IMG/VR virus record: IMGVR_UViG_3300036770_007134
Span: 1 to 64,000 of that record
DNA length: 64,000 nt
Source: a virus
Strand: one strand, 5' to 3'
How positions within the stretch are numbered: the stretch's first letter is position 1; every line of letters starts with the position of its first letter. A model generated the notes under the pieces. The model ran no database searches and was not told the DNA's origin. It saw only the letters and a program-made list of their open reading frames with translations. The translations under genes were made by a program, and so were the position numbers. Shown piece after piece: positions 2,984 through 63,900 of this stretch.

Positions 2984-3151
2984 TTAATCACTAGGAATCT
3001 CATATTTTTGATAAAAAACCTCCATATAATCATTACAAAAGGAGCAGGCTTGCATATACCCAATATCAAGCTTTTCAACATTAGGGAACTCGCCGCAGCA
3101 CTTTTGAATCACAAGTGAATATCTGCTTTTATCATTTATCGAACTGGGCAT
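2984..3151 (-). CDS. Small Cys-rich, possibly zinc-binding protein (55 aa)
   Basis: This short gene overlaps the end of the ribonucleotide reductase gene by 16 bases. It is open from the ATG at 3151, which has AAGG six bases upstream, to the TAA at 2984. The 55-residue product has two cysteine pairs, KCCGEF at 18-19 and ACSFC at 36 and 39. A CC-x16-C-x2-C layout could bind one zinc or act as a small redox partner. Its place directly behind an RNR that needs re-reduction of a C-terminal CX4C pair makes a thioredoxin-like or RNR-linked role tempting, but no CXXC thioredoxin fold is evident beyond CSFC. Function unassigned. Confidence 0.6.
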   Translation of the reverse strand: MPSSINDKSRYSLVIQKCCGEFPNVEKLDIGYMQACSFCNDYMEVFYQKYEIPSD

Positions 3152-15637: not shown

Positions 15638-18600
15638 TTAGCTCCAAGAATTTCCTTCTAAATCCTGAAGCTCAAATACCACACCAGCTGTCAGGTTACT
15701 TCTGATAATTTCGTAAACTTCAGTTTTATTTAGAAAATTATTTTCTACCTCTCTAGGTATTCTAATTATAACATATCCACCATTGGGATACGCCATAGAA
15801 GATGGTGGATAAATATCCCAATTATTTAACACATCAGGACTATATTCCATTAACTCAACTATAGAAACATCATCAACCAAACCACCACCTCTAGTCCTTA
15901 CATCTATATAATGAGGAATTTTATTATTTGGATTTCCATTTATACTAATTATTGCAATAGGTAGTGCGAAGGGGTTATAACTTGTTGATTTTTTGTTAAA
16001 TATATCTGAATTATAAGTATAATTCACTGAATTGGTATTTTCATAATCATTTATAAATATATATTTTTTACTAAAATTGTCGAACGTATAAACTTTTCTA
16101 GGAAGTATATATATGTATAATGGCTTCTTGTAATCAACGTTATTTAAAAACGGATTAATTGGGACAGGGCTCCCATCAATTTGTCTTATTAATATATCTT
16201 TATTTTCTACAGAATAATCAACTTTAATCTCACTAAGTTCGCTAGGAAGCACTCTGGGGATAAATTCAATAACACCATTAAAACAATCAATATTTTTTAT
16301 ATAATTTTCAGGGACTACATCCCATGAGCCCGTGTTTCTATTTTTGAAATATACCACTACTACCGGTTTCACTATTCCAAATATAGATTCAGAGTAATTA
16401 GTTGGATGATTCCATGATAAAATAGGTGCTTTATTTAGTTGAATTCTCTCATTATCAATAATTGTAGGATTTTCATTAGAAATATCATATGATCCGTACC
16501 CATATATGTCTGACCAATCAGACATTTTGGATCTAGAAGTCTCATAGAAGGCTAAAATTTCTTGTCCTAAATAATTCTTTTTCCAGTCATTTATATAATA
16601 GTTATTTGGAATTTTAATCATTTTAGAAAAAGAACCACTAGAAACAGGCAGCTCCCACGCATCAAATTTTGATAGTGAACTCGATAAATTTCCGACGCGT
16701 ATAGCGGACTCTGATCGGAAAGCTACAGAATATACAGGAGCTACGTACTTTAGAGGTATAGTTACAGGTGTAAAGGTTATATCTTTAGACGGTCCTATAA
16801 AATCTATATTACCAGTATTACCATCTGCATCATAGGCCAATACTCCGATGTAAACATTATTGCCGCCACTATTCCTTTGTATTAACTCTACATAAGATAT
16901 AGTAGTTCCTATAAACTCTTTTTTGTCTATGTCATAGAAACCGTATATAAATCCATCTTCCAGTAGCTCAAAGTTAACTATAGAGAAAAAACCAAATCTA
17001 GTATCAACTTCGTCATCTAAAGTGGAGTTCACATCTTTTAAACCTGAGTTGATCACCGAAGATGAAGGAAACCCAATTGGATCCCCAGAACTATCGCACA
17101 GTAATAAAACACCATCATTTACATTAACCGAATTTTTGCCTCCAGTATAAAGAATAGCTCCATCTATAGACCTAAGACTGTAGCCTTCCGGCATAGGCGT
17201 TGGCCCAACTCTAACGACTTGCGAATTAGAATAATAAATATTAGATGTTTGATACCTTAATACTATACCGACACCAGGTACAGAATATGGAGAATCTAAG
17301 ACTACAGGGGAGGCATCAACATTATCTCCCTTTTCCCATATGCCTATATTCGTATCATTATCTATAATTTTTGATATCTCATATTCAAGTATACTTGGGC
17401 TACTTATAAAGGTCGAGGAAAAGTTTATTCTAAACTCTGCGTCTTCGAAAAATAAATTTTCATCACTATTAAAGAATATATCTTTTAAAGAATATTCATT
17501 TTCTTCAAAATTATATGTTTTAGAATCTATCGTTATTGACTTTATATAAGCTCTGGATGATCTTCTAATCAAATCATAATAACTCTGCAGAGAATATATA
17601 CTATGTGTTACGACCTCTGATGGATTAACAATCTTTGGATAATCTTCAATTACAAACGTAAAAGTTCCAACTTTATTTTCTATTCTCGGAACCCAAACGT
17701 CTGGTTGCTCTTCATACCTGGGCTCTTCAATAACCTCTGTTACATAAGTGTACCCATAGCATTTTATTGATTTTATAGCGAACCCTTCTGCATACCCGTT
17801 GTTAAAAGAGGTGTTTGAAATTGAGTCGCCATAAATTTCTATCCACATGTATTTCGCATTACTCTGTGCTGGTTTTATATCAGGCAAACTAATCTTTATA
17901 ACACCATTTACAGGCGTTTTATTAACTACGTTTATACCAGGCATTGACTCAACGGATGCCCTGCTAGTAGCTAGACCGTATCCAACCACCCTACAATTGG
18001 CCCAGGATGGATCAATATTAACCCTAAGCTCACTAATTGAAGTAAGACTTTCTGGAAGCTTGAAAAATATAACATCTCTAGCCTCTTTTGGATTTACTAC
18101 ACCACTAAATGTTGTCTTTTTGTAAGTTTTACTATTTATTTCAGCTGCTACAGCGCAGCGCCTAGCTGCTTCTATGTACTGATATACTTTTGAATCTATA
18201 CTTGATATATATCTCAAGGCCTCATCATATATATCTCGCCTTTGTGAATAAACCCTTTTCCAAAAACTAGCTAAATACCATTTTGTCTCACTGTCAACTC
18301 TTCCATCTATGTATCTTAATTTTTCTGCGGACTGGAATGATCTAACGCCACTAGCGGTGGCTGGCCCATAATATTGATCCAAGCTATATGGATAATAGTT
18401 TCTAGTGCCAGAATAAAAATTATTATATGTCCAAAGAGTAAACTGAACATAAGTTGCAAAAGCGCCCCTATTGACATGATTGGAGCTGGATATATCATAC
18501 CTCCATATTTTCCACGTATTACCAAGATCTATATCTCCAGTATATGGGAAAACGTTAGTCGGCTGGGTGGTAGACGTAGCTCTGAATAAACCAATATCAT

Positions 18601-21253
18601 CAACAGCTGACCTAAAGTCAGATGCCGGAACCTCTACCCAAGATTTGGTCTGCCCAAACACACCAGGATATTCTATTGGATCAACTGCCTGGTAGTATCC
18701 TGTTTTAAATTCAATGCCAGTTAATCTAGCTGATCCATTCATTCCTGTGTAAGCTGTGTAACTTTGCGGAGAATCGCTAGCTGAATAATAATTGTAGTAA
18801 GAATTTATGTCAAACTTATAATCTTTAAAAGCTGCATTCCTATCTATTGCATCGTTTATTAAAATATTATTAGATGTACTTAACGGTTTTTCAATAATTA
18901 TATAAGGACCAAGATTATCTGGTATCCTCAACTCAGGAGATGAAACCGTAGTATACGCAAAGGTTTTTGCAGATGGTGTCGATATTTTATATAAATAATA
19001 TGAAGAACTTAACCCATTAACAAAGTTACTAGCAACCCTTTCTGCTTGGCCTGCGTTATATATTTCAACATCCGGGTTTGTTACCTCTATATAGAAATCT
19101 ATTTCTGATGAATCCATAGAAGATAACCTAGACTTTTGTTTATCGGTTATAAAATTAGATATTTCATTTTTATAAAAATTAAATATATCACTGTTTACTT
19201 TTTCATTTTTTAGAATATCTAAACCTGAAATAGAATTAGTTGGTGATATAGAAATGCTTGAAAAATAATTTGCCTTTTCTTCATCAAGAAGAACACTGGT
19301 ATCCATGACCCATCCGGATCTCCAATCAGAGACATAATTATACAAAGGGGATCTAAAGTCGACACGAGAACCCTTTATTGCCATTCTTGAGTATAAGCTA
19401 TAGCAGACCATATTGTAAAGGGCCTTAAAAGGGCCCTCTACAACCGCTGAAAACAAATTTCCTAAACCAGAATCAATAGAATAATCTCCATTATTAACTC
19501 TAATAACATTATCAGATCCTGTCACAGAAAATTGATCATTACAGTATCTGAAAAACGGGAAAGACGTTGCAAAAATGTTACCACCCGTAAGTCTATCACC
19601 TGTACTTTTGCTTATAATGTGAATGCCAGTTGGTTGTGAGTTGTGAGTTATAAAATAACTATACCTATCGAATTCAGATGAAGACAAGTAATTACTGAAA
19701 TATTTAGTATTCTTATATTCGCCTGAATCAAACTTACTTGTTCCATGAATGCTGTATTCCGCTTTCTCAAATATAGAACTTTCCCCTACATCATTTATAG
19801 TCCACCCACCATTTTTAGTTGAGTCTATTATCTCGGATTCAGTATTAAGTCTATGACTAGACATTTTAACCACATTGTCTGAGGATATACTTAAACCAGA
19901 TATTCCAGAAACACCATTTCTAGATCTAGATAGATCCATCATAAGCGAACCATTATTTGCAACAAAAGACTTAAGCTTTGCAACGTGGTTTACACTAAGA
20001 TCAAAAGAAGGTTCAAAAGCTAAGATATCATAATTAGATAAATCTTCAGTTTCTATATCTACTAACCAATAGTTTTTTTGGTTTTTTTCAATAGAACTTT
20101 GCTGAATATATAAAGGTCTTTCAATTTCAATTTTTTCAGCGTCGTTTGCATCTGAAAGTGGATTTACGAATTTAAATTTAGACAAATTAAATGGAGAGTT
20201 CTCTAATCTATAGAATATATAAGGATCATGCACCGACGAGGAAAATCGCGAACTATAGAGCACCCCTACGTTAACTGTTCTATAGTTTAATAGATCATCG
20301 TTAGAGGGAAAATCTTCTTCATTTAAAGATACAGAAGAGTTAGATTTAGCTATCAATCTCCAGTTGAACACTTCGTAACTTCTAGTATCTTCAATTGCCT
20401 TAGAGGGCACAAACACCTGATAGCCGTCATCCTCAACTTTATCTAGAGCTAGTTCTGAATACTTCTGATTAAACTTCTTAACTGCAAATATTTGACTATT
20501 AAAATAGTTTTTATCCAATACAAACGACTCTTCAGCTTTTTCTTTAAATATAGGTACTGCATTTATAGTCTCAGAATAATTTATTTGCTGATCGAAAATT
20601 AGACCTCTATCATCACATTGAACCTTATCATATGTTAACCTTATATTTTTTGGTTGATCTGAATCGAACAAAACTATAATTCTGTAAGGTATTACATCGT
20701 TTACGATATTATATTCAGTTTTAAATGGCTCTAAAAGTATTCTATATTTTCTAGTAGACTTAGCTACATTCACATAGTCCGAACCATCAGGTCTAGTCAC
20801 TAATATATTTAGTCCAACAAATTTTTCTTGATCTATATATTGACGAATTGACGAAGCAGAATAGTCTTTCGGAGCCGCAATAAAAAATCTGCTAATATAA
20901 AAATAATGTGAAAAATCTTGAAATTCAAGAGTATTTATGTCTAGTCTTTCCGTGTAAGATGGCTTGTTGATAAAAATATTTGAAACTGTAAGATTATTTG
21001 TTTTAAACTTAGAGGAGCCATTTATTTTTCTTAAAACTCCTAACTCATCTGCGTATGCTAAGGATTCGCCCTCAATATTTCCAATCACATTTTCTGGTAT
21101 CAAATATGACACATCTGAAATAGATAATGTGTTCGAAGGTGTCATTTTATCAGAACTAAACCATGCCAACGGTATTGAGTCAGATAAAGACTTGCTACCA
21201 ATCTTGATAGCTTTTTCATTTCCTTGAATTGTTTGATTTTCAAATTTTTCCAT
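15638..21253 (-). CDS. Very large baseplate/fibre protein with a GATase-like segment (1871 aa)
   Basis: The 1871-aa protein is mainly beta-rich and Ser/Asn/Tyr-rich. Residues about 400-565 stand out: YDILAFEPSFDLS, KLKSFVANNGSLMMDLS and, later, NIFATSFPFFRY follow the strand-helix order of class I glutamine-amidotransferase-like folds found in some surface and glycan-related proteins. I see no Cys-His-Glu triad. Around 1030-1130 a sandwich-like region (ISELRVNIDPSWANCRVVGYG; KYMWIEIYGDS) recalls discoidin domains. The ATG at 21253 (GGAG five bases upstream) is preferred over the GTG at 21256. It overlaps the previous stop by one base. Probably a virion surface or baseplate arm protein; no exact family. 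Confidence 0.65.
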   Translation of the reverse strand: MEKFENQTIQGNEKAIKIGSKSLSDSIPLAWFSSDKMTPSNTLSISDVSYLIPENVIGNIEGESLAYADELGVLRKINGSSKFKTNNLTVSNIFINKPSYTERLDINTLEFQDFSHYFYISRFFIAAPKDYSASSIRQYIDQEKFVGLNILVTRPDGSDYVNVAKSTRKYRILLEPFKTEYNIVNDVIPYRIIVLFDSDQPKNIRLTYDKVQCDDRGLIFDQQINYSETINAVPIFKEKAEESFVLDKNYFNSQIFAVKKFNQKYSELALDKVEDDGYQVFVPSKAIEDTRSYEVFNWRLIAKSNSSVSLNEEDFPSNDDLLNYRTVNVGVLYSSRFSSSVHDPYIFYRLENSPFNLSKFKFVNPLSDANDAEKIEIERPLYIQQSSIEKNQKNYWLVDIETEDLSNYDILAFEPSFDLSVNHVAKLKSFVANNGSLMMDLSRSRNGVSGISGLSISSDNVVKMSSHRLNTESEIIDSTKNGGWTINDVGESSIFEKAEYSIHGTSKFDSGEYKNTKYFSNYLSSSEFDRYSYFITHNSQPTGIHIISKSTGDRLTGGNIFATSFPFFRYCNDQFSVTGSDNVIRVNNGDYSIDSGLGNLFSAVVEGPFKALYNMVCYSLYSRMAIKGSRVDFRSPLYNYVSDWRSGWVMDTSVLLDEEKANYFSSISISPTNSISGLDILKNEKVNSDIFNFYKNEISNFITDKQKSRLSSMDSSEIDFYIEVTNPDVEIYNAGQAERVASNFVNGLSSSYYLYKISTPSAKTFAYTTVSSPELRIPDNLGPYIIIEKPLSTSNNILINDAIDRNAAFKDYKFDINSYYNYYSASDSPQSYTAYTGMNGSARLTGIEFKTGYYQAVDPIEYPGVFGQTKSWVEVPASDFRSAVDDIGLFRATSTTQPTNVFPYTGDIDLGNTWKIWRYDISSSNHVNRGAFATYVQFTLWTYNNFYSGTRNYYPYSLDQYYGPATASGVRSFQSAEKLRYIDGRVDSETKWYLASFWKRVYSQRRDIYDEALRYISSIDSKVYQYIEAARRCAVAAEINSKTYKKTTFSGVVNPKEARDVIFFKLPESLTSISELRVNIDPSWANCRVVGYGLATSRASVESMPGINVVNKTPVNGVIKISLPDIKPAQSNAKYMWIEIYGDSISNTSFNNGYAEGFAIKSIKCYGYTYVTEVIEEPRYEEQPDVWVPRIENKVGTFTFVIEDYPKIVNPSEVVTHSIYSLQSYYDLIRRSSRAYIKSITIDSKTYNFEENEYSLKDIFFNSDENLFFEDAEFRINFSSTFISSPSILEYEISKIIDNDTNIGIWEKGDNVDASPVVLDSPYSVPGVGIVLRYQTSNIYYSNSQVVRVGPTPMPEGYSLRSIDGAILYTGGKNSVNVNDGVLLLCDSSGDPIGFPSSSVINSGLKDVNSTLDDEVDTRFGFFSIVNFELLEDGFIYGFYDIDKKEFIGTTISYVELIQRNSGGNNVYIGVLAYDADGNTGNIDFIGPSKDITFTPVTIPLKYVAPVYSVAFRSESAIRVGNLSSSLSKFDAWELPVSSGSFSKMIKIPNNYYINDWKKNYLGQEILAFYETSRSKMSDWSDIYGYGSYDISNENPTIIDNERIQLNKAPILSWNHPTNYSESIFGIVKPVVVVYFKNRNTGSWDVVPENYIKNIDCFNGVIEFIPRVLPSELSEIKVDYSVENKDILIRQIDGSPVPINPFLNNVDYKKPLYIYILPRKVYTFDNFSKKYIFINDYENTNSVNYTYNSDIFNKKSTSYNPFALPIAIISINGNPNNKIPHYIDVRTRGGGLVDDVSIVELMEYSPDVLNNWDIYPPSSMAYPNGGYVIIRIPREVENNFLNKTEVYEIIRSNLTAGVVFELQDLEGNSWS

Positions 21254-24200
21254 CACTGCTCCGAACTGTCCGGATGTATTTGAGTATAGTCAGATATCAT
21301 ATTTGGAGTAGATCCGAGAATTCCCATTTGATATTGTTCATATCTAGATATTGGAACCCATCTAGGTGGCTCCCAATTGTATCCAGAATTAACAAAACTA
21401 ACATTACTAGAATCGCTGTGCTTGTATACAAAGTTTGGTGTCGAATATAAGTCTGAATTCTCTCTCTTAAGATGCCCTAACGCTGAATCAAATCCGGGAA
21501 CTTCATTAGCGTACTGGACTGGGTCATAGCTTTCATGCCAATAAACTATGTCACCACCTATAGTAATAAGATTATCACGGAAAACTTCACCTAACGATAC
21601 AACAATTGATCTAGCCTCTGATGGAGTAGCCAATTCAACCACCGCAAAACTGGTACCAGGATTTATTTGAGGATCAGCCAGAATTGAATCAAATACCTGG
21701 AATGAACCATCTGCATTACTTTTAACGGTTCCCGAATATTTGTAATTCGGAGTAGCAAAGATGTCAAACAAGGTATCAGCTACATACCAATTTATATCTA
21801 ACTCTGCTGAGAGCGGCTTATCCCTCCAATAAATTTGACCGATTATATTAACATACACACTGCCACTTCCCGAGTAGTGCAACCTTAGGGGAACTGCTTT
21901 AACCGATACAATAAATTCTACTGAATTTTTAATTGAATAATTAACAGTTGCAGAATAGCCATATGTATCGCTGGGCGGAGTTGCAGGATCGTCACCCTCT
22001 ATTAAGATATAGTCACTGATCATATCTGACGGAATTGAACCACTGTATCTTAAAATTGCTTTACCAACTCCATTGTCGTCAGTTACAATGTAGCTAGGAT
22101 CGGCTAAAACACTAGATGAACTTATCCAAAATCCTTGATTTGGTTTTAAGTTTCCATTAATATCTTTAGATACTATTGTTAAATACATGAAATCGTTAAA
22201 ATTATCAGATATATTTTTAGGGGAAAGATAAATATCTGCTGAACCAAAGTCCCTTTCTATGGCATCAATGTATACAAATCCTTCATCTAATGGATTTTCA
22301 ATTGCATCTATTCTTAAGTCTATGGGATATTTAAAATCGTTTGTTGAATTTTCATATGTAATCACATAGTCTTCTGGCGAATTAGGAGTAGATGATAGAT
22401 ATAGTCTTGCCTGGTACGAATCCGAAAGGAGGTCATAAAAATCTTTATCTATAAAATACGCCTTATTTACCATATAAGAAACTTCATATGCTCTTCCGTT
22501 AACCATAGGTGTCGCATCTGAGAATAGTTCGATAGAATACCCTGGTACGTCAATGTTGGAAAAAATATTTTTACCCAAAAATAAGTCTTTAACATATTCT
22601 ATATGAGTATCCTGATAAGCAAGATGAATTAGATTATAAATATTCCCATATATTATTTCTTTATTATAGAAGCTGTGAATATGCGGAGTTGCCAAATCTT
22701 GAAAGAAAACATTCCTATAATAATCAGATCCGACTTTCACTATAATTGGACTTCCGGCCCTGGGGACAGATGATAAAGTATGCTGGAAATTCTGAGAATT
22801 ACTAAACACGTCCGAAATTGAATCAGAATATATATATTGATCGTTTTTATTTATGTTGATTAACCCAGAATTAACAGATGCTAAATAATCCCTATCTAAA
22901 TAAGGATCTCTCTCTGCATATAAGTTAAAATTAGTTTCATTGCCATTTGCAAGATTGTTTTGCAGATTTAGCCTAAGAGAATTTATATCGTCTGTGTACT
23001 GTATAACATCATCGTTATTAGTTATAAATAATATTTTTTCTATAATTCTATATGAATCTTCACTTAAATTAAAACTATCTAATCTTAACCTGTAATTTCC
23101 GACTAACTTGTCCTCATTATAGTAGGCATCAAGGGGGCTCTCGTTGTTACTGTATGCGTTTCCGAACGAATCTATATAACCATAGTAAAGACCTGGAGTG
23201 GTCTCGGATGAAAAAGATTCGAAAGTTCTCGCTTTTATTGGATAGTGGCTACTATCTACGCTTCGTATGAACGCGTAATAATTATTATCGTAGCTTAATG
23301 TCGAACTTTCAAAATAAGAACTAGCTACTGTAGCTGATTCAGCTATAACATAGTATTCTATACTAGGTGAAGATGGTACAAAAAATCTTTCTTCTGTTAC
23401 TGGGTCGAAACAAACCCCACCATACATTCCAGTAACTGTGTCCATTATCCCATCAATATATATACTACTTGGTGTTGCACCACCTGGTAAAAGTATTGAA
23501 TCAATATGCTTTAATATATTCAAGTCAACATGAGATAAATCATAGTCCTCCAGACTGCTATAAGAATTTAAAACTACTTCTCTTTTAATTGGCTTAGAGT
23601 TAAAGTAAACTGGAGTAGCCGAATAAACATTAGATCCTATCAATAGATCTAAATCTTCTAAAATGAAATTAGGGGTTGATAAAGAGGTTGTGTTAACAGA
23701 CAAATATGATCCATCTATATCAAAAACTCTGACGTGTCCGGAGTCAGTTCCGTTTCCGTCATTGCTAGTAGCCCCCACAGCTAGACGGTTTCCATCAGAA
23801 GACAAATCCACAGACCAACCAGACAAATCGCCTGCAGCTTCACCATCGATATCGGATCCGACTTGGACCCAAGATGACCCATCCCAGTCAAAAACTCTGA
23901 CGTGTCCGGAGTTAGTTCCGTTTCCGTCATTGTTATAAGCCCCCACAGCTAAACGGTTCCCATCAGAAGACAAACCTACAGACCAACCAGACAAATCGCC
24001 TGCAGCTTCGCCATCGATATCGGACCCAACCTGAATCCAGTTCGATCCATCCCAGTCGAAAACTCTGACGTGTCCAGAGCTAACTCCATTGCCGTCATTG
24101 TGAATAGCTCCCACGGCTAAACGGTTTCCATTGGAAGACAAATCCACAGACCAACCAGACAAATCGTCTGCAGCTTCGCCATCGATATCGGATCCGACTT

Positions 24201-31858: not shown

Positions 31859-34800
31859 TTAATTTCCGATCCTTGTCAGTGTAGGGACTGTTTCCGATGA
31901 TGTCAAAACTGATTCCGACTCAGTTTGAATGTCTTTAACAAAAACTTTCGCAAGGTTATTTACTACAAGCTCCCAATTAAGACTATAAGGCGTACCATCG
32001 CTAAAGTATTCATCCCATGAAACATATGGCCATCTCGCAATAAGAGAATATATCTCTTCTATAGACTTAAATCTAACTAGCGCAGAATATAAACCTTGTT
32101 CATTCTGGCTAAGACCAGAAATTGAATCACCAGAAGATGGGTCTATTGTATAGTAATTAGGTATATTAGATGACTGAATTGAGTCAAGTATTTTATCAAA
32201 AAATACAAAAAATGGGGAGCCGTCATCAATGTCTAATTTCATATCATTTTTAACAATCTGCATGTAGTTTGGCTCGTTTATATGTGACCTCAATAATTCG
32301 TTAACATAGGATTTATGAGAGTCAATATTTTCATCTGGCAATCTATAAAATATAGTGCCTATAATTCTATCAAATTTATCAGTCTGATAATTGGTTGGAT
32401 CGTTTTGACTATTGCCAGCTTCATAATCTTGATTTAAAATTGCCGAACTAGAAGAACTGCCCGAGCTTCTTGTTTCATTTACTCTTAATACAAAAATTTT
32501 ATTTTTCAGCGCTCTTTCAACAAAAAATTTTGCTTGACCGGCTGAAGTAGACAGATCATTTATGCTTAAATTAGCAGACTCCGAAGATCCAGGTATTAGA
32601 ATTCTTCCATTTATAACGTTTAATTCTGATGTATCTATTCCGTCAAATCTAATAGTAAATTGGTTTCCAGATATTACATCCTGAACCTCTATAGTATCTC
32701 CATCCTTAACATCTAAACATTTTACCACAACCTTAAAGCTTGGCTCTAGTCCAGCTTTATCTGGCCCCAATCCAGAAAGTTTCAAAACTTCAGAATGAAC
32801 CATAGCGTTCTGGTAAGATGCATATCTAACAAAGTCTTCTATTTGTGTTTCTTGCCATCCCATACTCTTAAAAAGATCATCAGTTCTAACGTAGGCGTTG
32901 CCTTCTGGGGTTCTCATCTTAACTCTTGTCCCAAGTATTCCTGGTAGAATAGCCTTACTGTGATAAGAACCTACTACCATCCCCTGGTTATATGAAAGCC
33001 CCGCATCCATTGGTTGCCCATTCTTATTTAAATACTGGATATAGCATCCGTGTTGATCAATAAGATTATCTCTTATGTATCTCCAGCCAGACCATGCCAC
33101 TTTAGATGCTATTCCACCAACTACTGCACCAACAGCTAAACTTCCACCACCAGTCACTGGTGCAAGAATGGCACTAGCCGTACCAAGCGCAGTGCCAGAT
33201 ACACTTGAGGCCATTAAGGCAAAGAGGTCATACTTTCGGCCCTGTGTACTCATCATCTCCTGGAGTGCTCGACTAGTATCTGGCGCACTTTTTGCCACCT
33301 CTAAAGACATTAGATCTTTAACCAAAGCTGATGACCCGTGAGTATACTGTATCCCTCCAACTAACTGAGGCGACAACATTTCAGACAAAGCGTCCATAGA
33401 AACGTTTCCGCCAACCGATACCCCAGAGTTTGCTGATCTTAATTGATCTAACATTATTCTAGTATCATTTCTTAAAACTTGTTTAGACATTAATGAACCA
33501 ACTGACGATATTAAGCTCCACCTGACCGGATCATTAACAGTTACTAGTGCATTCGGAGTTATGGATGTTATAAAACCAAGATCTGGAGTAAAGTGATGGA
33601 CAACCTGCTCAACTTCAAATATTCCGTACATTCTTTCGTAAACATCTGCTAAATAAACAAGATCATGCGGACGTATATCTGCGTTGCCTACAACAACTAA
33701 TTCTCCGCCATAAATGTCTTTTATAGAATCTCTTAAATGTGATAAAGCTATCCTTTTTGCCGAGATTTCGTCAGGAACACCAGTAGCTGCCTTGGTGAAC
33801 CCTCTAATAGTCTGAAGTGGATGCATGATGGGATGGATTACGGCCAGCACTCCTTCTCCTATCGCGTTATCAAAAAATATTCCTGTCTCAATAGTTTTCT
33901 CAACTTGCCTCTCAGAAGGCGCACCTTTATCTAGCGCAACTGTTACCGGATATTTTCCATCGGATACAGCGGTTATCACTGTTGGTACGTCGCTTATAGT
34001 TTCCTGTATCCTGTTTGATAAAATGTGACTAAAAGAATTTACATAATGTATTCTTTGAAAAGGTTCTCTTACTTCTACTACAGGCTCACCATATTCTCTC
34101 GTAAAAGGATTGTCTACTTTTCTAAGCATTGAGCCATCTGTGCCTAGTGAATAATATATCGAATCATTTAGCGCTTTATTTAAAATATTTGACTGACGCC
34201 TAAAAGCACTTGACTCGCCAATTGCATAACCAAGCTGGCTCATAGATAACTTAAACTGATTTAGCAATAAACCCAACCCATCGGCAACTGAGCTAAATAT
34301 TGGACCTACAGTATTATTCCATGCCGCCTCTATAGCTGAAGTACCTTTAGACCACGCCCACGTTATTGGATTTGTCGAACTATTACCTTCAGACGCTGTT
34401 GAGGCTAGTAATGATAGGAATTTATCTTTATTACTTGGTTTCGCATAATCACCATATGGACTTATGTAAACCCTAAATACCGCATCGACTGGTTTAAAAC
34501 TCCATTCATCACCACTGCCAAATATATTATTGTTTCCAGTTGCCAGTGCACCTAATGCGCCGCCCATAGATGCGGAAATCACAGCACCGGGGCCAAAGCT
34601 GCCTGAGTTAAATACTTTAAAATCAGGCCTTAAGACTAACCACGCCCTAGAGTAAGGGTCTTCCCACAGCCTCTGTCTAAATGATCCGACCATAAATAAG
34701 AACAACTGTTTGGGAGTTCTTATTCTTTGCATTATATTCTCTATCTCTGCATCAACGTCAAAAGGAGCTCGTCCATTTCTAAAATTAGATGGGTCCCCCT

Positions 34801-37800
34801 GAGGGATATTGCCATCAGCGTCTGGTGCCGTAAGATTCGTCTCCGGATTTTCTTCAACTATTTCCGAAAGTACTCTTTCATACTCAACCTGAATAAGTGA
34901 CTTAATCGCACTATTCGATAAGAATATCTCTCTAATAGATGCTAGCTTAGAATTTACCAAATTATTCAAAGATGCTATTAAACCACCATCATCACTGGGT
35001 GCGTCTATAAAATTTGCCCTTGCAAACTCTATTGCATCTGCTAGCTCTTGAGATGCTGTTTGGGCACTGGTGGTGCCAGGCCTACCTTCTAGATTATCTA
35101 CGTAATCCTGACCCAGAAGCAGCGAAAACTCATCGAGTGCGGTTCCATCATCTGCCCCAAAATTAGATATAACAGGATCACTAGGATCTGTACTTAACGC
35201 TCGCCTTAGGTAAGCAGGAAGTTCATCATCTGAGTCAGGATCCATACCATACACTTCCTCAAATATCTTTTTTACTGAATCATATGTATGATAACCAGAT
35301 CTAAATTGATTCCATATCCTTTGTGCCTCTTCTTTAGTTCTTCCACTCCCAGCTATAACAGATACTGATGGATCGAAATCTTCATCGTAAAAAGATCTAG
35401 CCTGTATTGATATAACATCCGCTTGATCATATACAGCTGACAATGTAGATCTGTTATCCTCATCGGTTGACGTATCTATATCATAAAGCTTGTCAATATT
35501 TGTATTATTTACAACAATATTAAAGTATGTTTCGCCATCAATTATCGGATTTCCACCATAAAGAATTCTACTATAAGATGGAGATATTGCTGTTTGGTAT
35601 GGAATATATGCCTCTAAAGAATTATTTAGAACACCCACATACAAAGGTGTTCCGCCGACCATTACGTTGATGCCATTGTCATTTTTTTCGGCTAATAAAA
35701 CATCACCAGACAAAGGCTGAAACGCGCCAAATCCGACTAGTGTAGGATTAGTGACTATTTCTTGATTACTTGATATTTCTGAAAAACTTAATATTGGAGA
35801 ATTTTGAGGTGCAATAACACCTAAAGAAGTGTCATCAGGAACAAAGGCCATCAGACAATCTTGTGGAGATGGGCTGTCTCTAAACCCACCTATTCCTTCA
35901 CTCTCACTTTCGGTTATTATCCCTAAGTAATAAGCTGCGTCTGGAGAAACCACCGCATCGTGTTCATTTTCACCCCAGAGGAAGTATGCAGGAGCGCACA
36001 CGACAGCCCTACCGGTTGAAGGATTAAATACTAAAACTTTTCTATTTCTATAATCCTTAGCAGATCCGTACAACTCCCCATTCGGATGATACTTATTTTT
36101 AAAATCTTCTATAGTATCCGGGGGGGCCGTAGGCGTATAGGGCCACTTCATCGCTATGTAAAATTGCTCTCTCAGAGCATCTTTTACTGCTGGCCAATCT
36201 TTGGCATAGGAGTTAAAAAGTCTTAAATTAGTAAAATCTATAGAGCTAGAATTAAAAGATGATGCTTCAGTAAAATCAACCTGAGTAGTAGGAATCGGCA
36301 TTGCTGTAAAAACTGGAATCTGAACCTGCTCATCAAGAATTTTTCTTTGCGCGTTAAGCATTGCCGAGGAAAAGTCTATATATTTATCGAGTATAACAAG
36401 CTCTTTAAATCCTTCTCTATAATCCCATTTTCCATCATATGCCCTTTGAAGACCCTCTCCAAGAATGCTAACAGTAGAATCTATTATTTCTCCAGACAAG
36501 TTTATAGTGTCACCCTGTTGATCAAAAATTGATTCCACTATATCAAGTGCGTAATTTATACCCTGAGTAATATCGCCTAGTATTGGCACATCGCCAATTA
36601 GCCAGTCAAAACTTGCAATCGATAAAGCTCCAGTTGTCACATCGGTAATTTTATCTATACTCCAATCTACTGCTCCCGTTATGCCAGAAACTCCACCACC
36701 TATAACATCGTCAAACACATTTTCTATAAAACCACCTGGATCGCTTTCTCTATCAAACAACGAATACTGTTCATTATCTTTAAAGAAATCTTTCTCTACT
36801 TCTTTTAATATTTCAAACAGCCTAGTATCATCAGAATCGACAGTTATCGATGAGCTATTTTTAAGTTCAGAAATACCAGATATCCCGATTGTGTCAACAA
36901 AATACGGAAAAGAGTATCTTGGAGGAAGATTCGTTATCTGGGCATGTCTGCTAACCATTCTGTCAAAATCTATGATAGTTTCCTTTTCCTCATAATCGAT
37001 AGGAAGATGATAGCCGACCTGAACAGTACCTCTTGAAACAGGAAGTTTACTTATAACCTGTTCATTTAAAATATCAAAATACATCATAGAACTTGGACTA
37101 CCAAAATTTAATATTTTCCCACTAAGCTCACTAGTTGGTCTATATATTCCGGAAGAATTTTGTATATCTTCTCCGATCTTCTTATAGGAATCAGATAACT
37201 CAGCCATATCTAGAAACGCAGAATAATCAGAATATCTATTCGTAGACTTGTTGATTTGTGTAAGGATTTCACCAATTTCGTAATTAGGGCTTTTAATTTT
37301 TGGGATATCCTCTAATACACCAAGCTCTCTTGCTTTGTCATCTCCAGGATAACCTGTTGTTACCGGAATTACACCAGACGTGTATAGCCAATGGGGTTTA
37401 CCATAGAATATTGTAGATCTATCCTCAAATGGCCTGACTGCGACTATATAATTAGGAAGGAGTCTGGCACATGTGTCAAACATATCCCAAACAGTTCTCA
37501 TGTAAGTTTGAGCCCTAAATGATACTTCATCTGCCCCGGGAAGGTCGTCGTCTTCATTTTGGGATATAATTCCCATAGTTCTAAAAAGATTTCTCCCACC
37601 CCTACCTCTTAAAACCCCTCCAAGACCAAAGCCAACCAGTGGACTCATCGGCCCTCCAAAAGCCGTACTTATAAGACCGCCCACTATCCCAGAAGCTACA
37701 TCATCTTTGAGACTAGAATTGAGAGTGTAGTCAACAGTTAAATTATCCAAAGTAGCTGATGCGGAAGGATTATTCTTTTGTGTTTGGATTAAAAGTTTAT

Positions 37801-40800
37801 TCCAAGCGGTATCTGTTAGCATGGAAGTTGCTGAAGAACCGGATATACCAAAATTGTCTACTGGAGAAACAGAAGCCAAAGTTCCCCATCCATCATCTAA
37901 GTCACCACCAAGGAATTGGGCTATACCAGTTCCATTTCCTGGATATATATTTCTTTTAAACAACTCAAGATCTGTCTCATTTGACGACATCCCTAATAGT
38001 GAGGTGACAATATCAGTGACACCTATACCAGTAGAATTTTTGAAACTAGAATATGCTGAATAACTTTGATACGCGCCATATGCACCTGCAGTGGGTAAAG
38101 AATGGCCCGCCAGCACGGTTGTTACCGCTCCTCGTATTCCTGCGCCCTTGGATAGATCTGATATTTGACTTCCACCTATTCTCCCAGTACCAACGCCGCT
38201 GAAAGCAGAACTGATAGCGCTATACATTGCCTCTTGTTTATCTCGCTCCTGTCTAGTCAGTGGTTCATATAATATTGTACCGAAATGCCTAATACCAAAT
38301 CTATTTTCAGAAAAAACTGTACCTCTAGTAGCTCTTGCTATATTTTCCCTGACTCTCCCAGCGCCCATTGACAGGAGCCTTACCATTAAGTCTCTTGGTT
38401 CGGACATCCAAAATCCTGTATCTAAACCACCATCTATTTTTCCACTATCTCCTTTTTTATTTGTAGAATTAATCATACCACTAAGCTCAACTGCGTCAGA
38501 CTGAGCGGTGACTGTAACTATGTCTCCTTGTTCGACTTCTGTTATAACTCCGTTAAAAAGCGTTTGAAGAGAATTGGGATTCGCTCCATAACCAGCCCTA
38601 ATGTGAACTCTTACCCCAGGTTTTAGTCTAATATTATTTATATCTACAACATAATCATTTCTCATGTGACCAGAAATATTCCTAGATAAATTTAAAACTC
38701 TATCTATAGACATTTCTATACCAGCATTTAGTGGAAGAGTTTGATTAATCCCATCAAGATATGAATTAAACATTTCCTCGGCGGCGTTGGTCGTGAGTTT
38801 GGAATATAGGTTAGATAATCTAAAAACAAGGGTGTCGGCCATAATATCTTCTGAACTAACTATTGAAAAGTCTATTATAGATTGTAGTCCATAAAAATTA
38901 TCAAATAATTTCATTCCAGCGAAGTTGCCGCCCTCATCTATTAACCAGAGCATATAGGTGGGAAACGCTCTTATCATTCTACCTGTATTATCCCTATACT
39001 GCGTATCTTTTAACATTCCTTCCCAGTGTGTATAAACGTCTGTATCGTAGGCATTTTGATATTCGGAAATGGCCTTAGCTCCCGGAACCCCTGAGTTTAC
39101 TCTTGTGTTTCCATTGTCAGGAGTTTGTACATCTTCAATTGGGTTAGGTCTTAATAATAGACCCCCAGATGAGCCATCTGATAGATCAGATTTCTGTACT
39201 AAGTCTCCGCCTTCTCCATTGCTTAAATAGAATCTTCCATTCTTAGAATCGATATAACCGTAGTAGTTACCAATAGCCGTCATAAGCATCGAGGGGGTCA
39301 ATCCGCTTTCTATTTCATCTCTGTTCCCTGTTGGAATCGATACTATAACCTTATGAAATTCAACGTCGTCTGGGTCAAAGCTGACATAGTTTTCGGATTG
39401 AAGAGAGTATTCACCAGCTAAAGCTGACTCTATTTGCTTGGACACCCTTTCTCCAGAAAGTATATGATCACCAATTCTATATCTAGACGCAGATGCTTCT
39501 AGAAATATCGAATCCTCAGAAACATTATCTGCGAAATTTATAAATTCAGATATAAATTGTCCCTTATCATCACTGGATAGGCCTTGTGTTTGTTTCAAAG
39601 CGACTTTTTCATTTAGTACATACAAAAGCTCTTCTCTAGATATTTCAAGATCTTTTACATATTCTCTTATTTCTTCGTATAAAGGCTGGTTATTTGAATT
39701 CGTAGAAAACCTTCTTGCATATTGTATGAAATCAAATTCAATCTTTGCCAGTGCTATTTCATTATTTATAATATCACCAGCAGACGGCGTGGTAACCGGA
39801 GTTTGACTTAAATACTCTCTTTGTTGCGACATATTGTTTATTATATCTTGATCATATGTTTCAAAGCTTCTAAAATAGAAATCGGGATCTAAATTACCTA
39901 CAATTTCACCTTGTGAATTTTGAACAGATAACGGAAAATCTGGATATGCATTAAAACTGCCCCAAAGCTGCTTTATCCTTAGAAAGGGATTTCTTTTTGA
40001 AGAAAAATGCTCGATCATTTCTTTTTGCTGAGAACTAGAAAGATTTTCTCTTTTTTGCTGAAATATGTCAAAATCAGACAACGTCATATCGACCCTGTAT
40101 ACATGCGGCTGATTAGGAACTGTTGACACATTAAATGACATAGGAAGAACGTATTTAATCCCAGATAAGGCGGTGATAATATTTTTAATGCCCATAAAAC
40201 CAAGGACACCAGCGGAATGTTCTAACCTTGCTAGTCCAGATAGATGATCAAACATTCTTTTAAGTTTCTTCAACTCCTTTTCATCATTACCACTGCCTAT
40301 GACTATCATAGATATACTCACAAATGAATCTCCACCACCTATGTGTTGGTATGTTGGTTCGTCCATAAGTTGAACTTGCAGTTTGGCAAAATTGTTAGAC
40401 ATTGACACATTTATCGACTCTACTATTACCGAATTCTCATCAAAAGCTACCTCTATCATTGGGACTTCCCATTCATTAAACTGATAGCTTGCGTTCCTTG
40501 CTCTTTGAGCATCTAAGAATGCCTGTATTGGACCGCTTTGAAAGAATCTCTCATATAAAACGCCATTAAACGCGCTTGTAATTTGATCTTTGACTGACTG
40601 CTGATCAGGAGCTGTGCCGGTTCTATCTTGTATCTCTGATATTTTTTGATTAGTCAAATACTCCAAAAAAGAACTAGGATTAAGTGATATTCTGTACAGA
40701 AGATCTTTACACTGATCAAGTGTCATATTATCGCCATCAGAATTCAAAAGAACCTTATTCTGGAATCTCCATGGACCAGGATCTTGATACTGAGTTAGAT

Positions 40801-43800
40801 CTATTGCACCGCTTGGGCCAACATATTCCCTGAGCCAATCTTCTCTATTCTGACCTAGTTCATTTAGCTTGTTATTATTTTCTATAATAAATGTAGATAT
40901 TATAGAATTAAAATTAAGTTCCGCGGAATCAGAAGAGCCAAGTGGTGCAGTTAATATATCCAGACTGTCTAGTATCAACTTTCTATATGAAGGCGAATAT
41001 GTATTATTTCTAGATATGTCTATTGTTTCAGAAAGACTCAACCCATAGTCGGCTGCCTCCGTTATGTCTATACCAAATTTCGCCAACATCCTTCTCCATA
41101 CACTTTCCCCGGCATCCGTGAGCAGTTCTTCTTGTTCGCTCCTAAAGGAGGCTATTGATGGTAGGAATATTTTTGTTTGAGTTTCAGCTGGAACAAAAAA
41201 GCTAATATGCCTTCCATCTTGCCACTCTTTAACTATATTTGTAGTTAAAACATCAAAGTTATTTACTGCTGGTGCACCAACCTCTAATGGGATGTCTTCT
41301 CCGTCCAGCGGTGTTCCAATTTGAGTAACATCAAAATCTAAAGCTTCACCCTGGTCAACTTCTTTTGAATCTGAAGTTTTTAACAAAAAATTCTCATTAA
41401 CATATTTATGAAGATGAGTTGCTGCCTTCCCCATGTATTGGCGATATTTACCCCAGTGGATAGATTGATTAAAGTCAGACAACATTGGCAGGAATGGCTT
41501 ATGGTTAAAATTAAGCAGTTCTAAATCAACTGCCAACGTAAAAGGATAACCAGGAACCGTATTTATAGACATAGAATTTAGACATACTGCGGTTATGCCG
41601 TGAACTGAGTTTAAATAATGGTTTTTTATTGGTAATATTGGAGAATACCTAAAAGCTGCAACAAGGCCTCTTAAAGAAGATAAGAATTTATCAATAACTT
41701 TTTCGTCACTACCACCTGCCTTAAAGTCTATCTTCATATCCTCATTTAGACTTATAGACGTTCCAGAATCTAAACTTATTCCCCATATTTCTTGATAATT
41801 AGGGAAAAATAACCTTAACCTTACTGACGTCTCTTTGTGTCCAGAGTTAAATTTAGGAGTATTTTTTTGCCTAAGAGCTCCACCTGTTAAGCTGCCGGTT
41901 TTGAAAGATGTATTTATATCTATTGAGATAGGTGGAACATAAAAATTAGCTGCACCGAGTCTTAAATGAAAAATATCAGGAGACTCAGGATGTATATTTG
42001 ACCTATAAGGTGAGCTGTCTAATACATTCTTTATTCTTCTAGCTGTATTATCAAGCTTATGAGCTAACTCAAAGACTTGTTGACCATTCTCTCCAATCCC
42101 AAATGCTTTTTCTAAAGTATCTATATAATTAGCTTCAGCGGTTGCTTGATCACCATATTGATTAGTTATAGCAATTGCGTCAATTAATAAAGTTGTGAGA
42201 CTTGGAATATAATAAGAGATTACAGTAAAAGCTATAGGGTCACTCTTTATCTTAGCAACTGCTGCTGATAGTGACTCAAGCCAATATATATCTTCAGCGG
42301 GATTGAGAAAACTATCAGCTGGAGCATTTAATGCGCCTATACTTGTCAGTCTTCTTTGAGCAAAAAGTGATATATCGTAGGCGTAGGATGCTAACTCCAA
42401 AAGGCCGCTAGATATAAGCCTGTCATAAATTACATCTATACCATTATTTTCAAGTTGACTTAGTCCTTCTGTGTTTACCGAAGAAAATGCCCTAATAAAT
42501 GAGTCAAATCTCTTCTGTTCAATATCTTCATCTCCAAAAGCTGTCAAAACAAGCCCTCGAACAGATCTTGTATCCGCTCCTTCCCAAGCAGATCCGGCAG
42601 ATGAGCCCGCACCGATACCCAAGGCCTGAGAAAGAGCCGATGCCGCAGAGTTAACGTCAACATACTCGCTAGAAACACCTGGATTTGAATAATCAAAATA
42701 ATCACGACCTGAGTCGCCCAAAGTGGCAACAGTTATTTCTTCCGTTACCAGCCTTTCTTCTTCTATCAGGGCATCATAGTCTAGCAATGATGAGGCTAAA
42801 ATTGCGGCCAACTCACTTCTAAAGATTACATCAACAAGATCTTCAAGACCAAGATTTTCATACTCATCAATAACTGCCAGAATTCTTTCTTCGACTCTTT
42901 GGGTTATTTGCAGTATATAAAAACCACTTTTTTCATCTAACTTTTGAATATATTCATCATATTCAATTGCAGAAGAATTATACTGCAAATATATGCTTAC
43001 AATGTCGGTCGAATAGTCTTGTAGAATATCCTCATAAGAAACATTCAGTGTTTCATATAACGAAGATAAAATTATTGTCTTTATTGGCTGCTCACCAGGA
43101 AAGGCGTCTACGTATTCTGTGACATTTGCGCTAATTACTTCAGCTATATCGTTATTGAGCTCAGTAATAACTTGATTAATGTTGGATGCAATTATTTCCT
43201 GATTTTGATCTGCAAACTGTTCTGCCGTTAGTCTTATCTGACTTTTGGCTAAATCTATTAAATTAGGAACCTGAGTTTTAACTATTGTCTCAAGCTGAGT
43301 TCTGGCTATTTGTGCGCCTTTGCTTCTGTAATCTAATATTATTCTTTCTATATCATGGTTAAAAAATTTGGATACGTCGCTAGACGCATCCAAAAAAAAT
43401 GTAGAAAGACTAGAAATAGTATCATATACAGATATGCTTTTGTTAACTGCTGCTTCTATCTCTTCTTTAATTCTTTTTACCGTAGATTCGCCACTCCAAA
43501 CTTCTAATCTTTCATTTGCGATCTTTGCGGCGGTTAGGGGGACCTCATCAATGTATATATCGTTTTCCCATAAATGTTGCCGCATTTGCTCCGGAAGACC
43601 AAAGCCTTGATTACCATACCCACTTTCGAGTAGTGCGTTTTGATAGTTGTCATAAGCTATTTGGTTTGATGAAGTATATTGACCGGTTACAAATACAGAC
43701 AAACATAAATCCATAGCAAGCGTAGAAAATTTATCTTGCTCATCTGAGTAGTAGTATATTATATGTTTTCCGGGAACATTTGGAACATTGCTAAGATATT

Positions 43801-43939
43801 GCCCATTAATAGTTCCATCTTTAAGAAACTCTTTAATATTTTCTTCAGAATCACCATTAAGAACAGAAACAACCCTGGGGTAATCTGAAGAAACAACTAT
43901 AGCCTCTAGATATGTTATAGCTTCACTATTTGTGGTCAT
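31859..43939 (-). CDS. Giant tail hub/baseplate protein with C-terminal SNase domain (4026 aa)
   Basis: At 4026 aa this is the largest gene in the window. Order: a helical N-terminus (1-~600); two related domains, copy 1 at about 646-823 and copy 2 at about 1156-1296, sharing DEKxxxKxLSxLxG, IKN-type and MSxNxxTVPxxPxxxxVDxxLxxF patterns; a gp27/gpD-type hub segment at about 1740-1825 (DINNIRLKPGVRVHIRAGYG, NGVITEVEQGDIVTVTA); several Gly/Ala-rich hydrophobic stretches (about 2083-2110, 3576-3626); and a complete staphylococcal-nuclease domain at about 3735-3865. The last has KDGDTIEV, TIRFDGIDTSE, AGQAKFFVERAL, DKFDRIIG and YVNELLRSH, retaining equivalents of catalytic Asp21, Arg35, Asp40, Thr41, Glu43 and Arg87. 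It is encoded between the tape-measure-type proteins and the cell-wall hydrolase, which supports a tail-tip hub. Confidence 0.85.
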   Translation of the reverse strand: MTTNSEAITYLEAIVVSSDYPRVVSVLNGDSEENIKEFLKDGTINGQYLSNVPNVPGKHIIYYYSDEQDKFSTLAMDLCLSVFVTGQYTSSNQIAYDNYQNALLESGYGNQGFGLPEQMRQHLWENDIYIDEVPLTAAKIANERLEVWSGESTVKRIKEEIEAAVNKSISVYDTISSLSTFFLDASSDVSKFFNHDIERIILDYRSKGAQIARTQLETIVKTQVPNLIDLAKSQIRLTAEQFADQNQEIIASNINQVITELNNDIAEVISANVTEYVDAFPGEQPIKTIILSSLYETLNVSYEDILQDYSTDIVSIYLQYNSSAIEYDEYIQKLDEKSGFYILQITQRVEERILAVIDEYENLGLEDLVDVIFRSELAAILASSLLDYDALIEEERLVTEEITVATLGDSGRDYFDYSNPGVSSEYVDVNSAASALSQALGIGAGSSAGSAWEGADTRSVRGLVLTAFGDEDIEQKRFDSFIRAFSSVNTEGLSQLENNGIDVIYDRLISSGLLELASYAYDISLFAQRRLTSIGALNAPADSFLNPAEDIYWLESLSAAVAKIKSDPIAFTVISYYIPSLTTLLIDAIAITNQYGDQATAEANYIDTLEKAFGIGENGQQVFELAHKLDNTARRIKNVLDSSPYRSNIHPESPDIFHLRLGAANFYVPPISIDINTSFKTGSLTGGALRQKNTPKFNSGHKETSVRLRLFFPNYQEIWGISLDSGTSISLNEDMKIDFKAGGSDEKVIDKFLSSLRGLVAAFRYSPILPIKNHYLNSVHGITAVCLNSMSINTVPGYPFTLAVDLELLNFNHKPFLPMLSDFNQSIHWGKYRQYMGKAATHLHKYVNENFLLKTSDSKEVDQGEALDFDVTQIGTPLDGEDIPLEVGAPAVNNFDVLTTNIVKEWQDGRHISFFVPAETQTKIFLPSIASFRSEQEELLTDAGESVWRRMLAKFGIDITEAADYGLSLSETIDISRNNTYSPSYRKLILDSLDILTAPLGSSDSAELNFNSIISTFIIENNNKLNELGQNREDWLREYVGPSGAIDLTQYQDPGPWRFQNKVLLNSDGDNMTLDQCKDLLYRISLNPSSFLEYLTNQKISEIQDRTGTAPDQQSVKDQITSAFNGVLYERFFQSGPIQAFLDAQRARNASYQFNEWEVPMIEVAFDENSVIVESINVSMSNNFAKLQVQLMDEPTYQHIGGGDSFVSISMIVIGSGNDEKELKKLKRMFDHLSGLARLEHSAGVLGFMGIKNIITALSGIKYVLPMSFNVSTVPNQPHVYRVDMTLSDFDIFQQKRENLSSSQQKEMIEHFSSKRNPFLRIKQLWGSFNAYPDFPLSVQNSQGEIVGNLDPDFYFRSFETYDQDIINNMSQQREYLSQTPVTTPSAGDIINNEIALAKIEFDFIQYARRFSTNSNNQPLYEEIREYVKDLEISREELLYVLNEKVALKQTQGLSSDDKGQFISEFINFADNVSEDSIFLEASASRYRIGDHILSGERVSKQIESALAGEYSLQSENYVSFDPDDVEFHKVIVSIPTGNRDEIESGLTPSMLMTAIGNYYGYIDSKNGRFYLSNGEGGDLVQKSDLSDGSSGGLLLRPNPIEDVQTPDNGNTRVNSGVPGAKAISEYQNAYDTDVYTHWEGMLKDTQYRDNTGRMIRAFPTYMLWLIDEGGNFAGMKLFDNFYGLQSIIDFSIVSSEDIMADTLVFRLSNLYSKLTTNAAEEMFNSYLDGINQTLPLNAGIEMSIDRVLNLSRNISGHMRNDYVVDINNIRLKPGVRVHIRAGYGANPNSLQTLFNGVITEVEQGDIVTVTAQSDAVELSGMINSTNKKGDSGKIDGGLDTGFWMSEPRDLMVRLLSMGAGRVRENIARATRGTVFSENRFGIRHFGTILYEPLTRQERDKQEAMYSAISSAFSGVGTGRIGGSQISDLSKGAGIRGAVTTVLAGHSLPTAGAYGAYQSYSAYSSFKNSTGIGVTDIVTSLLGMSSNETDLELFKRNIYPGNGTGIAQFLGGDLDDGWGTLASVSPVDNFGISGSSATSMLTDTAWNKLLIQTQKNNPSASATLDNLTVDYTLNSSLKDDVASGIVGGLISTAFGGPMSPLVGFGLGGVLRGRGGRNLFRTMGIISQNEDDDLPGADEVSFRAQTYMRTVWDMFDTCARLLPNYIVAVRPFEDRSTIFYGKPHWLYTSGVIPVTTGYPGDDKARELGVLEDIPKIKSPNYEIGEILTQINKSTNRYSDYSAFLDMAELSDSYKKIGEDIQNSSGIYRPTSELSGKILNFGSPSSMMYFDILNEQVISKLPVSRGTVQVGYHLPIDYEEKETIIDFDRMVSRHAQITNLPPRYSFPYFVDTIGISGISELKNSSSITVDSDDTRLFEILKEVEKDFFKDNEQYSLFDRESDPGGFIENVFDDVIGGGVSGITGAVDWSIDKITDVTTGALSIASFDWLIGDVPILGDITQGINYALDIVESIFDQQGDTINLSGEIIDSTVSILGEGLQRAYDGKWDYREGFKELVILDKYIDFSSAMLNAQRKILDEQVQIPVFTAMPIPTTQVDFTEASSFNSSSIDFTNLRLFNSYAKDWPAVKDALREQFYIAMKWPYTPTAPPDTIEDFKNKYHPNGELYGSAKDYRNRKVLVFNPSTGRAVVCAPAYFLWGENEHDAVVSPDAAYYLGIITESESEGIGGFRDSPSPQDCLMAFVPDDTSLGVIAPQNSPILSFSEISSNQEIVTNPTLVGFGAFQPLSGDVLLAEKNDNGINVMVGGTPLYVGVLNNSLEAYIPYQTAISPSYSRILYGGNPIIDGETYFNIVVNNTNIDKLYDIDTSTDEDNRSTLSAVYDQADVISIQARSFYDEDFDPSVSVIAGSGRTKEEAQRIWNQFRSGYHTYDSVKKIFEEVYGMDPDSDDELPAYLRRALSTDPSDPVISNFGADDGTALDEFSLLLGQDYVDNLEGRPGTTSAQTASQELADAIEFARANFIDAPSDDGGLIASLNNLVNSKLASIREIFLSNSAIKSLIQVEYERVLSEIVEENPETNLTAPDADGNIPQGDPSNFRNGRAPFDVDAEIENIMQRIRTPKQLFLFMVGSFRQRLWEDPYSRAWLVLRPDFKVFNSGSFGPGAVISASMGGALGALATGNNNIFGSGDEWSFKPVDAVFRVYISPYGDYAKPSNKDKFLSLLASTASEGNSSTNPITWAWSKGTSAIEAAWNNTVGPIFSSVADGLGLLLNQFKLSMSQLGYAIGESSAFRRQSNILNKALNDSIYYSLGTDGSMLRKVDNPFTREYGEPVVEVREPFQRIHYVNSFSHILSNRIQETISDVPTVITAVSDGKYPVTVALDKGAPSERQVEKTIETGIFFDNAIGEGVLAVIHPIMHPLQTIRGFTKAATGVPDEISAKRIALSHLRDSIKDIYGGELVVVGNADIRPHDLVYLADVYERMYGIFEVEQVVHHFTPDLGFITSITPNALVTVNDPVRWSLISSVGSLMSKQVLRNDTRIMLDQLRSANSGVSVGGNVSMDALSEMLSPQLVGGIQYTHGSSALVKDLMSLEVAKSAPDTSRALQEMMSTQGRKYDLFALMASSVSGTALGTASAILAPVTGGGSLAVGAVVGGIASKVAWSGWRYIRDNLIDQHGCYIQYLNKNGQPMDAGLSYNQGMVVGSYHSKAILPGILGTRVKMRTPEGNAYVRTDDLFKSMGWQETQIEDFVRYASYQNAMVHSEVLKLSGLGPDKAGLEPSFKVVVKCLDVKDGDTIEVQDVISGNQFTIRFDGIDTSELNVINGRILIPGSSESANLSINDLSTSAGQAKFFVERALKNKIFVLRVNETRSSGSSSSSAILNQDYEAGNSQNDPTNYQTDKFDRIIGTIFYRLPDENIDSHKSYVNELLRSHINEPNYMQIVKNDMKLDIDDGSPFFVFFDKILDSIQSSNIPNYYTIDPSSGDSISGLSQNEQGLYSALVRFKSIEEIYSLIARWPYVSWDEYFSDGTPYSLNWELVVNNLAKVFVKDIQTESESVLTSSETVPTLTRIGN

Positions 43940-58527: not shown

Positions 58528-59286
58528 TTAATAGACATTTGTTGGGACAACATTTAGCGCATTTTGAGCAGAAAGGCTTTCCCTTGGATCTTTTCTGTAT
58601 AGTATTTCTCTAATACTTTCGTCCACATCGTCACCAAATACATTTAAAGATATTTGAATATCCCTAGCAACTTGGTCTGGATTTGAGTCCGGATCATCTA
58701 TAGATGGATTACTATACTTAACCATAGGCTGAATCCCTCTTGCCATGTATGTATATGTTTGCTCGGTAATTAAATCATCTATAGACATCGTTTGACCTTC
58801 ATCAACTATAGTCATACCAAGTATTTTCATCTTTGCAATTGAACCATATTCATTTAAAAAAGTTATAACCATATCAAATGGAGGTAACATATCTGCCAAT
58901 GGTGCAAAGAAGCCATTTTGTCTTCCTAGTAAATTTCTGTATTCTTTTATTTTGTAAAATGCATATTCGTTAAATACAGTAAATATCATGCTTCCAGCTA
59001 TTGTTCTCCCCCCTTTGATAAAGCTTTTCGGATTAACATGTCCAATAGTTCTTATAGGAGAATTTTCTCTATGTATAGAGTAGGAAATAGTCTGAAGCTC
59101 GCCCAAGTCAATAACTTGCCCAATCCCATTAAAAATTTTACCCTGACTACCAATAGGAGGTAGTATTATTGTAGCAACTGCGTCAGCGCCAGAGAAGGAA
59201 ATATTAGTATTAATATAATCTGTATTTAAAATATTTGTTTCACCAGCAGGACCGTTGTCTACTGTTGGATATATCTGAGTGCTCAT
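58528..59286 (-). CDS. Tail-tube-like protein 2 (252 aa)
   Basis: The 252-aa protein shares the tube fold with gene 1: SFSGADAVATIILPP, REN-SPIRTIGHVNPKSFIKG, GGRTIAGSMIFTVFNEYA, PPFDMVITFLNEYG, EGQTMSIDDLITEQTYTYMARG. Compared with tube protein 1 it has an insert of about 20 residues after the first strand. It is preceded by the 16-bp hairpin in the gap before its ATG. It may form the end of the tube or an alternative ring, with probable lower copy than protein 1. Confidence 0.78.
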   Translation of the reverse strand: MSTQIYPTVDNGPAGETNILNTDYINTNISFSGADAVATIILPPIGSQGKIFNGIGQVIDLGELQTISYSIHRENSPIRTIGHVNPKSFIKGGRTIAGSMIFTVFNEYAFYKIKEYRNLLGRQNGFFAPLADMLPPFDMVITFLNEYGSIAKMKILGMTIVDEGQTMSIDDLITEQTYTYMARGIQPMVKYSNPSIDDPDSNPDQVARDIQISLNVFGDDVDESIREILYRKDPRESLSAQNALNVVPTNVY

Positions 59287-63899: not shown

Positions 63900-63900
63900 A

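Follow-up and report, generated by a model that had tools for sequence, protein, structure and literature searches.

The C-terminus of a 4026-residue baseplate hub protein, encoded in a 64,000-nucleotide stretch of DNA from an uncultured phage (the window), is best read as a divergent staphylococcal nuclease (SNase) domain split by an insert. We give a probability of about 0.6 to the reading that this domain is a fixed structural module of the hub and, in the window phage and most of its relatives, also a Ca2+-dependent nuclease. The analysis shows the fold, the residue set, its conservation and the location in the hub, whereas catalysis is inferred. The use of Ca2+ is carried over from the SNase family, and hub homology suggests where in the virion the domain would lie.

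The first-pass annotation had described a 4026-residue tail hub with an SNase domain. This length was confirmed for the open reading frame at 31859-43939 (minus strand), and the hub role fits both gene order and homology. Five collinear blocks (residues 657-842, 1156-1377, 1642-1889, 2134-2186 and 3288-3489) aligned in order with the hubs of two phages, MTATph1 of Moorella and KLEB27-3 of Bacillus, with E values down to 4e-31. The record of the Acinetobacter phage ME3 hub carries a note of homology to the 0305phi8-36 hub. The genes run from a pair of tail sheath genes and tube-like genes, through those for proteins of 2214 and 1750 residues, to the hub and then baseplate J. Because the protein is collinear with annotated hubs and its gene falls into this order with those for sheath and baseplate J, we identified it as a hub. 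Its homologous core and its gene order fit a member of the 0305phi8-36 lineage. Compared with the MTATph1, KLEB27-3 and ME3 hubs, residues 2186-3290 (34070-37384, minus strand) constitute a window-specific insert of about 1100 residues without a Pfam match. No peptidoglycan hydrolase domain was recognised within the hub protein itself.

Three SNase motifs were found at the residues first proposed for them, all on the minus strand: DGDTIEV (residues 3746-3752, 32704-32684), IRFDGIDTSE (3763-3772, 32653-32624) and DKFDRIIG (3854-3861, 32380-32357). In staphylococcal nuclease numbering, Asp19 corresponds to D3746, Asp21 to D3748 (the second D of DGD), Thr22 to T3749, Arg35 to R3764, Asp40 to D3769, Thr41 to T3770, Glu43 to E3772 and Arg87 to R3858. 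The catalytic set of Asp21, Arg35, Asp40, Thr41, Glu43 and Arg87 is complete in the window hub, in agreement with the earlier claim. The strict signature DGDT-x(12,18)-R-x4-DT-x-E never arose when the hub protein was shuffled 20,000 times, and a looser signature stretched to Arg87 arose in four of 20,000 shuffles.

Sequence profiles by themselves gave weak signals. The Pfam profile PF00565, with a curated cut-off of 21 bits, gave no match to the window hub domain at E<=10 and none to 50 family members (the window and 49 orthologues) at E<=1. However, profile-profile comparison of the 50-member hub-family alignment with an alignment of phage SNases, stand-alone and from other hubs, reached 93% probability (E=3e-7). 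Against the window hub, PHROG 452 'endonuclease' scored E=0.02, and the NCBIfam model of the calcium-activated nuclease EcnA scored E=0.0013, far under the EcnA cut-off. Neither the domain nor the family profile retrieved anything usable from Pfam or from PDB sequences, and the hub-family profile found no PDB chain. Weak PDB sequence matches, one to SAMP2 and another to a plant protein, were dismissed as chance.

The AlphaFold2 model, which spans residues 3645-4026, has a core with pLDDT mostly above 80 and shows a five-stranded OB barrel with helices in the SNase order. A Foldseek search of the PDB with this model returned, among the matches listed, only SNase or Tudor-SN structures. Alignment to 1snd with VIA-align gave Z 12.3 and an rmsd of 2.3 Å over 100 residues, as anticipated for an SNase-type barrel. 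The active-site residues lie in the model at the expected elements, namely the β1/β2 turn, the end of β3, the loop after β3 and the start of β5. A chance likeness to SNase, or a different OB fold, would suit the silence of Pfam across all 50 sequences and the missing PDB chain. We consider this most improbable in view of the structural Z score, the profile-profile E value, the absence of the strict signature from the shuffles and the correlated conservation described below. An SNase fold with a complete set of active-site residues at the hub C-terminus is well supported by the predicted model.

The domain had been placed at about residues 3735-3865. Its start and motifs hold, whereas its end does not, since the fold resumes beyond an insert. 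The domain spans about residues 3734-4004, filling the hub C-terminus, and is split after β5. The first part (residues about 3734-3866; 32342-32740, minus strand) comprises β1 to β5, helix 1 and all six active-site residues. It is followed by about 115 inserted residues (about 3867-3984; 31988-32341, minus strand), which are mostly helical and end in a conserved WPYVSWDEY motif. The second part (about 3985-4004; 31928-31987, minus strand) contains LNWELVVNNLAKVFV, the putative counterpart of SNase VNEALVRQGLAKVAYV. Structural alignments paired model residues 90 to 358-360 with SNase residues 7 to 114-116, superposing LNWELVVNNLAKVFV (3987-4001) on VNEALVRQGLAKVAYV. The same register was found independently by hhalign with E=0.003, compared with 0.11 and 0.8 for control segments. 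The last 63 hub residues alone gave no significant HMMER match to SNase, and 125 of 2000 shuffles scored equally well. We assigned the second part to the SNase fold on the strength of the structural alignment, whose register hhalign shares; this modelled assignment is less sure than the rest of the domain. Staphylococcal nuclease itself (thermonuclease, PF00565; 1snd, 1snc) shares with the predicted domain its fold, the order of its elements and Asp21, Arg35, Asp40, Thr41, Glu43 and Arg87. However, it is a secreted free enzyme rather than part of a hub, it has no insert between β5 and helix 2, and its loops after Glu43 and before Arg87 are shorter.

A scan of viral contigs yielded 80 loci that share this hub C-terminus, which together with three from another scan and the window gave 60 distinct sequences. 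The SNase domain was alignable in all 60 of these hub C-termini. Asp19, Asp21, Thr22, Arg35, Glu43 and Arg87 were invariant in 40 of them, and these intact hubs had a median column conservation of 47.5% and a median pairwise identity of 37%. Position 41, where SNase binds Ca2+ via the backbone, was Thr, Ala or Ser in the intact hubs. The side chains of Lys84 and Tyr85 were not conserved in the hub domains. In the 20 degenerate hubs, Thr22, position 40, Glu43 and Arg87 were replaced and the fold-defining positions were retained. On a tree of the hub sequence that precedes the domain, the intact or degenerate label needs only two changes, with the site lost in the window's nearest sister (L042) and in a clade of 18. 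Two losses from an active ancestor would be the natural reading and fit this tree, change counts carrying no direction. Since the sister has a dead copy, catalysis would be dispensable there. The dN/dS ratio in the domain, estimated from close pairs, was about 0.13 for intact and about 0.06 for degenerate hubs. The model of a degenerate member, built from an alignment that included intact members, matched SNase with Z 12.2. The degenerate copies have kept the fold and are under purifying selection. Because the domain is present in all 60 hubs and its dead copies keep both fold and selection, we regard it as a permanent structural component of these hubs.

The SNase fold could then be a structural OB-type hub module and nothing else, with the active site of the window a relic or a non-cleaving binder of nucleic acid or another ligand. 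The retained fold positions, low dN/dS and Z score of the 20 orthologues without the site agree with such a role, as does the prevalence of Asn rather than Asp at position 40. However, if the role were purely structural, one would not expect six positions to be jointly invariant in 40 sequences about 37% identical and several of them to be lost together, and we consider this role rather unlikely. That 40 of the 60 orthologues conserve the site speaks for real catalysis, and on these sequence comparisons most lineages probably have an active enzyme. The simplest reading is a structural hub module that doubles, in most lineages, as a predicted enzyme.

Asp40 is a Ca2+ ligand in SNase, and among the 40 intact hubs 33 have Asn at this position and seven, including the window hub, have Asp. 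Activity may therefore be reduced in the 33 otherwise intact hubs with Asn. The window also contains a stand-alone SNase gene (1-327, minus strand), truncated at its 3' end by the contig edge, in which the active-site residues are present. Unlike the hub domain, it passes the PF00565 cut-off (E=2e-8). Matches above this cut-off occurred in 31 of 42 relative contigs, nearly all of them short open frames of 121-157 codons, and the stand-alone SNases of relatives that were re-read mostly had Asn at position 40. That Asn is common in these proteins suggests that Asn40 may be a tolerated variant and no mark of a dead enzyme. Stand-alone genes were found beside intact and degenerate hubs alike. Whether a hub has Asp or Asn at position 40 is not coupled to the residue in its genome's stand-alone SNase, as three genomes (L039, L052 and L053) combine Asp in the hub with Asn in the stand-alone protein. 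The stand-alone SNase of the window reads GVDAPE, versus GVNTPE in the corresponding genes of most relatives.

The earlier view that no system of this kind had been described had to be given up. An SNase domain was reported in the hub homologue of BtI1, a phage-like element of B. thuringiensis israelensis (RBTH_07687), by Hardies et al. 2007 (PMC2147016), the first such report, and other named hubs carry one. The arrangement of an SNase domain in a tail hub is thus of an already known kind. Like that of the window, whose hub is assigned to this type by homology and gene order, the BtI1 domain is SNase-related and fused to a gp27-type hub of the 0305phi8-36 lineage, and its function was unexplained by Hardies et al. 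as well. It lies N-terminal to the hub core, whereas that of the window is C-terminal, insert-split and invisible to Pfam. Direct comparison revealed that the hub cores of ME3, MTATph1 and KLEB27-3 are homologous to that of the window, and each of these hubs has an SNase domain. Plasmids pAD3 (B. velezensis) and pN497-ZHONG (C. oceanisediminis) encode further hubs with the domain, their cores linked via a match to KLEB27-3; these two Bacillaceae plasmid hubs are annotated 'nuclease'. PF00565 detected the ME3 domain at residues 1126-1241 (E=5e-14), mid-protein and beside an M23 peptidase, and SNase motifs were found inside the MTATph1 and KLEB27-3 hubs. In the latter two and in both plasmid hubs the domain is N-terminal, in contrast to the C-terminal domain of the window. 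The motifs of pAD3 and ME3 look complete, as in the window, and position 40 is N in MTATph1, Q in KLEB27-3 and D in the window. SNase domains thus recur across giant hubs, and their N-terminal, central or C-terminal positions fit repeated acquisition or relocation. The hub genes of MTATph1 (OR602862.1, 37880-44557) and ME3 (NC_041884.1, 37999-44988) are annotated 'endolysin' and 'peptidase', respectively, and neither record names the SNase domain.

Tudor-SN (SND1) resembles the window family in carrying SNase folds within a large protein, and 3bdl aligned to the window model with Z 11.4. Some SN copies of Tudor-SN have lost the catalytic residues and retained the fold. Its tandem repeats, however, are eukaryotic and outside virions, unlike the window hub. 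What is new here is a C-terminal, split, Pfam-invisible SNase family in which active-looking and dead copies both occur naturally. This family has at least 60 distinct sequences, overlooked by Pfam, in which active-looking, Asn40 and dead versions occur at the same site. The reason for a nuclease in a tail hub has been a standing question since 2007, and with three natural versions of one domain the nuclease question becomes directly testable through comparison of related domains.

Any site of action or substrate is a guess. The hub would sit at the tube tip in every virion, and the nuclease would reach the cell surface and periplasm together with the tail. Ca2+ there would be sufficient for activity, and the nuclease might cleave surface-bound or matrix DNA, or periplasmic DNA or RNA. 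The phage genome would be protected within the tube and would exit in the cytoplasm, which contains little free Ca2+. We offer only tentatively, as a doubtful extension, the full picture of a large uncultured phage lineage whose active, Ca2+-dependent SNase, fixed in the tail tip of every virion, clears or attacks envelope nucleic acid during infection and in some lineages was switched off, with the domain kept as structure. Type VI secretion (T6SS) spikes that bear effectors share ancestry with phage tail tips, a kinship that would suit a domain which is delivered into the cytoplasm and acts there on host or rival nucleic acid, like a nuclease effector of a contractile injection system. PAAR proteins are treated by Iyer et al. 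2021 (PMC7824862). The earlier suggestions of entry into the cytoplasm and of an attack on competing phages gained no support from these data. Such a cytoplasmic role seems improbable, as an active enzyme would endanger the incoming phage genome and the cytoplasm offers too little Ca2+ for SNase-type enzymes, whose requirement exceeds the supply there. With the two peptide patterns tried, no relatives of the hub C-terminus were found in bacterial and archaeal genomes, and therefore no host was identified.

Several other genes of the window were noted around the tail genes. Two different tail sheath-like genes are neighbours at 60069-61322 and 62307-63923 (minus strand), and two phrog_9206 paralogues (58528-59286 and 59358-60044) come after this pair. 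A protein of 1872 residues (15638-21256, minus strand) has a PG_binding_1 domain at residues 954-991. A ribonucleotide reductase large subunit (3136-5079, minus strand) and a family 2 glycosyltransferase (329-1114, minus strand) are also encoded near the structural genes.
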